Assembly (NCBI RefSeq): GCF_003605195.1
Contig: NZ_QYOS01000022.1
Location: 62,001-126,000, forward strand
DNA from: Aurantiacibacter odishensis
Lineage (GTDB): Bacteria; Pseudomonadota; Alphaproteobacteria; Sphingomonadales; Sphingomonadaceae
Length of the DNA: 64,000 nt
Reading direction: 5' to 3'
Shown piece after piece: positions 28,605 to 45,943 of the stretch (positions within the stretch are counted from its first letter, which is position 1; each line of letters begins with the position of its first letter). Made by a program: the position numbers and the translations under genes. Under the pieces are notes generated by a model, which worked only from the letters and a program-made list of their open reading frames with translations, was not told the origin of the DNA and made no database searches.

Positions 28605-28631
28605 TCGCGGGAAGCAAGGCATCGCCCGAAG

Positions 28632-28668
28632 AAAAGGCCCCGCCGGATCGATCCGGCGGGGCCTTTTT
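28632..28668 (+). terminator. Rho-independent terminator of the cpa/tad operon
   Basis: A perfect palindrome centred at 28649/28650: AAAAGGCCCCGCCGGATC pairs with GATCCGGCGGGGCCTTTT, giving an 18-bp stem that ends in five T on the plus strand. It is 28 nt after the tadC stop. Confidence 0.9.
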
Positions 28669-42161: not shown

Positions 42162-43657
<1,496 letters not shown>

Positions 43658-43661
<4 letters not shown>

Positions 43662-44032
43662 TTCGTCAACCCTAACAAATATGTCTCAAGGCTCTTCAGT
43701 TCGGCCTTGCATACCTCATCAAATTTCCCGCTGCCTGTAATCGAGATTTCTTCGAGAAATAACAGTGTCGGCTCTCTGTATTGCGGGTAATCGCGGAGGT
43801 CTCTTAAATACGCGATCATGGCCGGGCCATTAAACTTTCCGTCTCCAGACTTCAGGTCTTCATTCATCGATTTCACGAGACGGGCGTAATCGTGGACATA
43901 GGAAGTGTTTCCAGACTTGTCCCTCTTCCTGTTTCCCTCAACGGCCATGATCGTGATGATGACCAGCATCCAGAACGGAATCACCATCCCGAAGATTATC
44001 AATCCCAGAGCAATCCACTCGAAAGTGATCAC
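43658..44032 (-). CDS. Small membrane protein X2 in the gat operon, paralogue of X1, function unknown
   Basis: About 124 residues from the GTG at 44032. This start is chosen because it aligns with the paralogue X1 (both begin M-x-x-F-E) and because it overlaps the upstream mini-frame stop as GTGA; a TTG 18 nt upstream is the alternative. One N-terminal membrane helix ([19 protein letters not shown]), a short basic segment (NRKRDK), then a helical cytoplasmic domain ending [18 protein letters not shown] and LKSLETYLL. The frame is about 48-49% G+C by count, against about 60% or more in gatA, X1 and gatB. That drop suggests recent transfer. The stop overlaps gatB as ATGA. Confidence 0.72.
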
Positions 44033-44106
44033 CCTCTGAACCCCTGCCAAGTCACCGCCATCACCCGCCCACCAGCGTTTGCGCCCTGGACACGGTAATT
44101 GCTCAT
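44029..44106 (-). pseudogene. 25-codon mini-frame copying the start of gatB, linked by overlaps to X1 and X2
   Basis: From the ATG at 44106 the minus strand reads MSNYRVQGA, identical to the first nine residues (and bases) of gatB, then 16 unrelated or diverged residues (from NAGGRV to WQGFRG) and a TGA at 44031-44029. The ATG overlaps the X1 stop as ATGA, and the TGA overlaps the X2 GTG start as GTGA, so the mini-frame exactly bridges the two genes. It is best read as a remnant of the original gatB start left by insertion of X2, now possibly serving translational coupling. Whether it is translated is not known. Confidence 0.65.
44079..44106. repeat. 28-bp direct repeat, copy 2 (displaced gatB start)
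   Basis: Identical to 43634-43661. Together the copies bracket the X2 gene, and the distance from one copy to the other is 445 bp. This is far longer than the usual target-site duplications of insertion sequences, and no transposase or terminal inverted repeats are seen. Confidence 0.92.
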
Positions 44107-44461
44107 GAGTTCGCCTCGAGAAGAAATGCCTCGGTCTTCTTCAGTTCGTTCTTCAACATCTGGTCGTAAGGCGTGCTGCCGCTCACGTTGATGTCGTTGA
44201 TCATCGTTACCGAGATGTCGCGGTATTCAGGAAAGGTCTGCAGTTCGCGGATGCAGGCGACCACGATCGGCGCGCGCTTCCGGTCTGCGCGCATTTCGTT
44301 CATCAGTCGGTCCATCACCGCGGTGAAGGCCATGCAGCGCTGCGCCGATTGCAGCTGCTGGCGCTGCTTGCGATTGGCGAAGTGCACGGTGCCCACCAGC
44401 CACCAGATCGGCAGGATCAGTCCGCCCACCAGCAGCACGATGACGAGGACTTCGAAAAAGC

Positions 44462-44465
<4 letters not shown>
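44103..44465 (-). CDS. Small membrane protein X1 in the gat operon, function unknown
   Basis: About 120 residues from the GTG at 44465, the last of three consecutive GTG codons, chosen because it overlaps the gatA stop as GTGA. One N-terminal membrane helix ([20 protein letters not shown]), a basic NRKQRQQ segment, then a helical domain with [20 protein letters not shown] and LKKTEAFLL. It aligns end to end with X2 (shared F-E, P-x-W, NRK, Y-R, and the L-K-x-x-E ending) at perhaps 30% identity. The G+C content is like its neighbours. I do not recognise a named family. Confidence 0.72.

Positions 44466-45942
<1,477 letters not shown>

Positions 45943-45943
<1 letters not shown>

Follow-up and report, generated by a model that had tools for sequence, protein, structure and literature searches.

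How does a bacterium come to carry, between two genes of a translation operon, a short open reading frame (ORF) that copies the exact start of the gene downstream? The question arises in a 64,000-nucleotide (nt) stretch of the Aurantiacibacter odishensis genome (contig NZ_QYOS01000022.1, positions 62,001 to 126,000, assembly GCF_003605195.1; here called the window), whose minus strand carries, in operon order, gatC, gatA, a small gene designated X1, a mini-frame of 25 codons, a second small gene, X2, and gatB. In the current study, we compared this locus with the corresponding loci of related genomes and conclude, with a probability of roughly 0.8, that the mini-frame is a recombination scar, left when an X2 allele was stacked beside X1 by incomplete recombination at the same locus. 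The event has parallels: the process recurs across the bacterial family, in which the gatA-gatB gap serves as a hotspot for insertions and varies in content.

Results

The mini-frame (44029..44106 of the window; like all the features below, it lies on the minus strand) opens with a copy of the start of gatB. The old start (44079..44106) and the start of the intact gene (43634..43661), read as 44106-44079 and 43661-43634, are identical at 28 of 28 bases and are spaced 445 bp apart, just as had been reported in the original prediction. Within the window, a search tolerating up to 3 mismatches finds this 28-mer at two sites, and 100 dinucleotide shuffles yield no match; across the whole 3.19-Mb genome, a search tolerating up to 2 finds the same two sites and no others. 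Apart from a palindrome at 28630-28667, the pair is also the sole repeat of at least 24 nt found in the window. The match to gatB possibly continues, in eroded form, for another 22 nt (extension score, 6; P = 0.038), and when compared with the best gatB start, the window relic is 91% identical over 43 nt. An assembly error would leave the unique, low-GC X2 unexplained.

The joins between the genes are built alike. The TGA of the upstream operon gene, gatA (44462..45943, recognized from its ORF and translation), overlaps the start of X1 (44103..44465) as GTGA; X1 overlaps the mini-frame as ATGA; the TGA stop of the mini-frame overlaps the start of X2 (43658..44032) as GTGA; and X2 receives its stop codon from the ATGA of the intact gatB (42162..43661). 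The last three of these overlaps had been listed previously and can be read in the sequence. The first, which was absent from that list, has the same form as the mini-frame/X2 join. The four joins are therefore of two kinds, each occurring twice, a pattern suggestive of two gatA-X-gatB units set end to end.

The state of the site before X2 is seen in two related species. For the genus, we read 36 of the 39 other genomes (G015 and G025 gave no match, and G038 gave only a gatA match). In G032 and G031, the repeat is absent, and X1 (last base, gap base 359) directly overlaps gatB (first base, gap base 356), again as ATGA. The gatA-gatB gap is 355 nt in these two genomes versus 800 nt in the window, and the difference, 445 nt, is the repeat spacing. 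This is what insertion predicts, and it upholds the proposals that X1 once adjoined gatB and that a segment consisting of X2 plus a gatB start was added, the stop of X2 being inside the gatB ATGA. Nor is the mini-frame common property of the genus, an outcome that would have spoken against insertion: none of the 33 other genus gaps scanned carries it (the remaining three of the 36 are 1 nt long), and G022 and G034 hold different gatB-start relics. X1 is also carried by G039, G010, G011, and G034; in these four, other sequence follows X1, and none has X2.

These comparisons also bear on the reverse order of events, in which X1-mini-frame-X2-gatB would be the ancestral arrangement and X2 would have been deleted elsewhere via the 28-bp repeats. 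Such a deletion would recreate the exact arrangement of G032. However, the simple form is found in G031 as well as in G032, the four other carriers of X1 are without X2, and other lineages have X2-type genes but no X1. We consider this order of events improbable.

X1 and X2 encode proteins of 120 and 124 amino acids (aa), respectively, each with a hydrophobic N-terminal helix; in the small membrane-type protein encoded by X1, this helix is long and is followed by a helical domain. The two are distant homologues, 29 to 31% identical, a relationship missed in the original prediction: their alignment score is 154, compared with a mean of 25 and a maximum of 39 in 300 shuffles. The AlphaFold model of X1 is all-helical but weak (mean predicted local distance difference test score, 73.5; predicted template modeling score, 0.44). 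No Pfam family matched X1 above the cutoff, none matched it at an E value of 0.1 in NCBIfam or PADLOC, and neither X1 nor X2 has a convincing family in Pfam, NCBIfam, PADLOC, or PHROGs (the best match was a phrog, with an E value of 0.012).

Because X1 and X2 are homologous and each terminates at a copy of the repeat, one might suppose that X and the gatB start were duplicated in tandem within this genome, after which the X copies diverged. Yet about 70% of residues differ between the two copies, against 28 of 28 identical bases in the repeat, the GC contents are 59% for X1 and 48% for X2 (64% for the window), and two related species have X1-only gaps. Moreover, in a 19-row tree, X2 clusters with G023 and G343 (support, 97/95), apart from the X1 group, and a single X1-plus-X2 clade is rejected (approximately unbiased test, P = 2.57e-6); the tree program flags long branches, which makes the exact placement of X2 less sure than the rejection of the clade. 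Tandem duplication is therefore extremely unlikely. The origin of X2 is not local; X2 is a divergent member of the gatA-linked gene family of X1 and not a copy made in this genome.

X2-type genes are rare, and those fetched keep to gatA. At an E value of 0.001 or better, matches were found in 15 of 396 genomes of the order, X1-type matches included. A first scan of named genomes with X2 gave no match, and a scan of named genomes with an X1 alignment gave seven loci. Seven X2-type relatives were fetched (L143 to L149, including G023; the matches in G284, G306, and G371 lie outside this set), and at every one of these loci the X2-type gene comes after gatA, directly in six and at a distance of 173 nt in L143. 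In G023, the X2-type gene stands alone between gatA and gatB, and weaker relatives of X occupy the gatA-gatB gaps of G037, G043, G044, and G137. One weak relative of X1 was seen outside the order, in Xanthomonas sp. LMG 31884 (L156; 33% identity over 63 residues).

How might X2 have come to lie beside X1? Starting from an ancestor with gatA-X1-gatB, the present arrangement would have arisen through recombination of this locus with its counterpart, gatA-X2-gatB, in DNA of a different strain or lineage. The incoming DNA would have been joined by homology on the gatB side only, and its upstream end would have been joined just inside the resident gatB start, not in gatA, as in homology-facilitated illegitimate recombination (HFIR), for which the founding papers reportedly date from 2002-2003. 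The incoming allele would then have been stacked next to the old one instead of replacing it; the mini-frame would be what remains of the old gatB start, and the start that came with X2 would now serve the intact gene. By this account, the mini-frame would end in the TGA that once closed the donor's gatA, the structure seen in G034. Since the X2 stop lies in the gatB ATGA, X2 arrived joined to a gatB start, and since the first 28 nt of gatB are the same in both window copies and in G032, the gatB start of the donor would have closely resembled them, as expected of a conspecific strain, or one from a nearby species, bearing the other allele. Homology of one flank is what the loci display: X2 is followed by the gatB start, and gatB lies within reach downstream of the X2-type gene in five of the seven fetched loci. 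The joint on the other side is placed no earlier than nt 28 of the old gatB (the joint in G034 has a 7-nt gatB/gatA overlap). Presumably, the additive one-sided joints are those that leave gatA and gatB both whole, and short relics may be favored, as recombination between longer repeats would remove the insert.

A recombined tract might be expected to extend into gatB itself, and changes private to the window genome (versus G032 and G039) do peak at gatB nt 1-150, with 15 compared to a mean of 7.1 per 150 nt; over nt 51-200, the window genome is 87 to 88% identical to G032 and G039, and those two are 94% identical to each other. Several points nevertheless weigh against the proposed recombination. 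The peak has a codon-shuffle P value of 0.13 when scanned over the gene, and the unscanned test of nt 51-200 (P = 0.007) used a segment chosen after seeing the data. A similar peak of private changes is present in gatA, with 23 at nt 171-320, far from the junction. None of the sampled X2-type lineages matches the private letters in gatB (1 of 14 in G023), and the closest relatives of X2 are only 46 to 47% identical, so that the donor is unsampled. The species of the window, moreover, is represented by one genome. Finally, the 46-nt spacer between the repeat and X2 (44033..44078), which may include 19 nt of eroded gatB, when compared with 97 gatA ends, gave a best score of 10 versus a shuffle mean of 11.2, with no significant trace; matching gatA ends no better than shuffles do, the spacer leaves the hybrid nature of the mini-frame something that, in the window, we only infer. 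A donor tract in gatB is thus hinted at, not established, and because the evidence for it is nonsignificant, we describe the locus as working like HFIR and do not file it as a proven case. As a separate matter, the gatA cluster may itself be another recombined tract.

The mini-frame, then, would be mainly a relic and is possibly a hybrid of a gatB start and a gatA stop, a structure seen directly only in G034 and G022. We had also entertained the idea that the spacer is a dispersed element, first suggested by matches of 17 to 29 nt within the genus, several of them 15 to 23 kb from gatB. This idea was dropped after 19 sites had been read; their contexts were unrelated or of a conserved coding type, with only the short match in common, and at these sites the matches are chance hits within coding genes.

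To see the locus in a wider setting, we used 136 resolved genomes, namely, that of the window, the 36 others of the genus, and 99 from other genera of the family. The latter derive from 100 fetched of 144 family genomes with a gatB match, a nonrandom choice made approximately by similarity. A gatA end lies upstream of gatB in 136 of the 137 loci read, that of the window included (G066, with no gatA end, was dropped); gatB starts were set by script to the nearest start codon and may be off, as in G099. The gatA-gatB gap is shorter than 40 nt in 33 genomes, 40 to 299 nt in 25, and at least 300 nt in 78, with a maximum of 5,205 nt. As a control, the gatC-gatA gap measures -10 to 177 nt in all 54 loci (of 60) that have at least 700 nt upstream. 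The content between these conserved core genes is variable, as befits a hotspot. Among the first 97 genomes, 78 of which have gaps of at least 40 nt, a simple ORF picker found 142 ORFs, 60 of them singletons; the recurrent families include one of about 49 aa (19 genomes), one of acyltransferase type (16 genomes), and X (10 genomes). The commonest occupant is a one-helix-type protein of 47 to 49 aa ending HGEARFD...GK.IDDE (19 of 97 genomes; e.g., L058 in G024 and L048 in G005). Pfam was applied to 20 larger cargo proteins, and 16 had a match: acyltransferase 3, glycosyltransferases, FkbM and other methyltransferases, sulfotransferase, a flavodoxin-like fold, and a subthreshold Sel1. The many acyltransferases, glycosyltransferases, and FkbM methyltransferases and some sulfotransferases in this cargo suggest variation of surface glycans from within a housekeeping operon.

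Scars similar to the mini-frame are found across the family. Relics of the gatB start are present in 7 of the 103 gaps of at least 40 nt: those of G000 (the window genome), G022, G034, G054, G092, G138, and G141. All seven share the strand of gatB, and their matches stay inside its first 117 nt; no relic was found in any control (the opposite strand for gatB, shuffled gaps, and gatB and gatA segments 200 nt inside). Outside the window genome, identity to the best gatB start is 95% in G034, which is near-intact; the other five have diverged, at 91% over 35 nt in G138, 85% in G022, 82% in G054, 80% in G141, and 75% in G092. The ends of the relics differ, from about nt 35 to nt 117 of gatB; the gatB-like part of the G141 relic holds a stop, and the G092 relic has no start codon at the expected place. 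A search of 78 gaps with the full-length gatB protein found only residues 1-30 (G022) and 1-21 (G034). Six loci (L143 and L145 to L149), outside the count of 103, have no gatB-start relics. An eighth hit, in G099, was discarded because the gatB start had been mis-set, and hits to the last 120 to 400 nt of gatA were taken as noise (G065 on the same strand, at 69%; G006 and G027 on the opposite strand).

The end of gatA, or sequence like it, is present in three gaps. In G034 (L042, gap bases 1226-1333), nt 1-58 of gatB are fused in one frame, through the 7-nt overlap, to the final 57 nt of gatA (96% identical), and X1 comes next. In G022 (L055, gap bases 139-246), nt 1-91 of gatB continue, without a change of frame, into the gatA end (AAGTGGTGGTGA); the whole relic translates as MTNYRIEVATAEWHVVIGLKVHAQVTTNTKPHKWW*. 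The gap of G079 (L124) has, at about base 782, a lone gatA-end-like relic ending AAATGGTGGTAG; it comes after a gene, which we take from its motif to be sulfotransferase-like, of a family also found in the gaps of G022 and G039, where the two members have no Pfam match. A search with the gatA-end pattern gave these three matches on the gene strand and none on the other. The three relics look like seams between stacked gatA-gene-gatB units.

The cargo and the relics also bear on whether X2 could have come with a mobile element or through a staggered break, by transposition or end joining, with the 28 bp as a target-site duplication or attachment (att) site. A direct repeat does flank a 445-bp unit, and relatives lack this unit. 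However, neither 72,556 plasmid records nor 50,697 phage records contain a match to X2 at an E value of 0.01; its stop lies within the gatB start, to which it must already have been joined; all seven fetched relatives come after gatA; and the relic ends vary, unlike a fixed att site. Neither an integrase nor a transposase was recognized by Pfam among the 20 larger cargo proteins (four of them without a match), and a fixed repeat accompanied by a recombinase was not found. (A whole-genome integrase search was nondiscriminating, with matches in all 149 genomes.) We rate insertion of this kind as quite unlikely.

A further proposal, compatible with a scar left by recombination, is that selection has kept the mini-frame as a coupling device that hands ribosomes over from X1 to X2. 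The ATGA and GTGA overlaps at its two ends, the 28/28 identity, and the G022 and G034 relics, which are likewise open in frame to a gatA-type stop, would all suit such a role. On the other hand, the overlaps resemble the gatA/X and X/gatB joins of relatives, and GTGA is present at the gatA/X joins of G032, G023, and G037, so that it was probably inherited. X2 is also preceded by an AGGGG of its own, 8 nt ahead of the GTG, five relics among the six others have diverged (one with an internal stop and one without the expected start codon), and a recent relic would be identical as well. Coupling is thus a possible but rather unlikely reason for the survival of the mini-frame. More doubtful still is the broader idea that the gatA-gatB junction is a self-propagating slot in which units stack and in-frame seam mini-frames are kept for translational coupling.

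Discussion

It was supposed in the original prediction that an event of this type had not been described. That claim is not supported, as additive one-sided homologous recombination has been published, and so has the acquisition of a gene, Moraxella bro, at the same site. HFIR is an additive mechanism of this kind, and in the relevant passages of PMC5361080 and PMC3240628 it resembles the history proposed for the present locus in that one end is homologous and the other illegitimate, and DNA is added, with the old sequence standing beside the new. Unlike those cases, ours is known from sequence alone, with a donor tract only hinted at and the donor unsampled. The arrays of orphan immunity genes of the Vibrio cholerae type VI secretion system, as presented in the pertinent part of PMC5361080, are similar in that an old allele lies beside an added one and the same recombination is invoked; in contrast, our locus lies within a translation operon, the proteins are small and of membrane type, and the scar duplicates the beginning of the flanking gene.

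The bro beta-lactamase of Moraxella is likewise an acquired gene in the gatA-gatB gap, and transformation-mediated transfer is named for it in the corresponding passage of PMC4073114. It differs from the locus described here in being a single gene in a distant group, and no start-copy scar appears in that passage. The text of a Moraxella genomics paper (PMC12373483) contains no mention of gatA, gatB, or gatCAB. None of the papers listed in our literature searches, which took in few subscription papers, gives an account of the gatA-gatB slot or its scars, whether for Sphingomonadales, for Aurantiacibacter, or for gatCAB operons as hotspots.

Hotspots flanked by core genes and diversified by homologous recombination, as portrayed in part of PMC5635113, share with our locus variable genes between conserved flanks and, in many cases, the lack of integrases; here, however, the gap sits between two genes of one operon, and junction scars have been retained. 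According to sections of PMC2884548, 10 to 18% of small variable segments are flanked by short direct repeats. Those repeats are mainly discussed there as a route to deletion, whereas the repeat seen here is the start of the downstream gene and, in our reading, a record of addition. Most variable loci reveal only the outcome of gene exchange. At this one, some of the seams survive, and they show how a gene can be added between two operon genes without breaking either. As the gap often holds glycan-type modification enzymes and small membrane-type proteins and, in Moraxella, took up a resistance gene, the arrangement may offer genes a general route to a ready-made expression site.

Elsewhere in the window, the palindrome at 28630-28667 is about 38 nt long and lies between runs of A and T; it is likely a bidirectional terminator.
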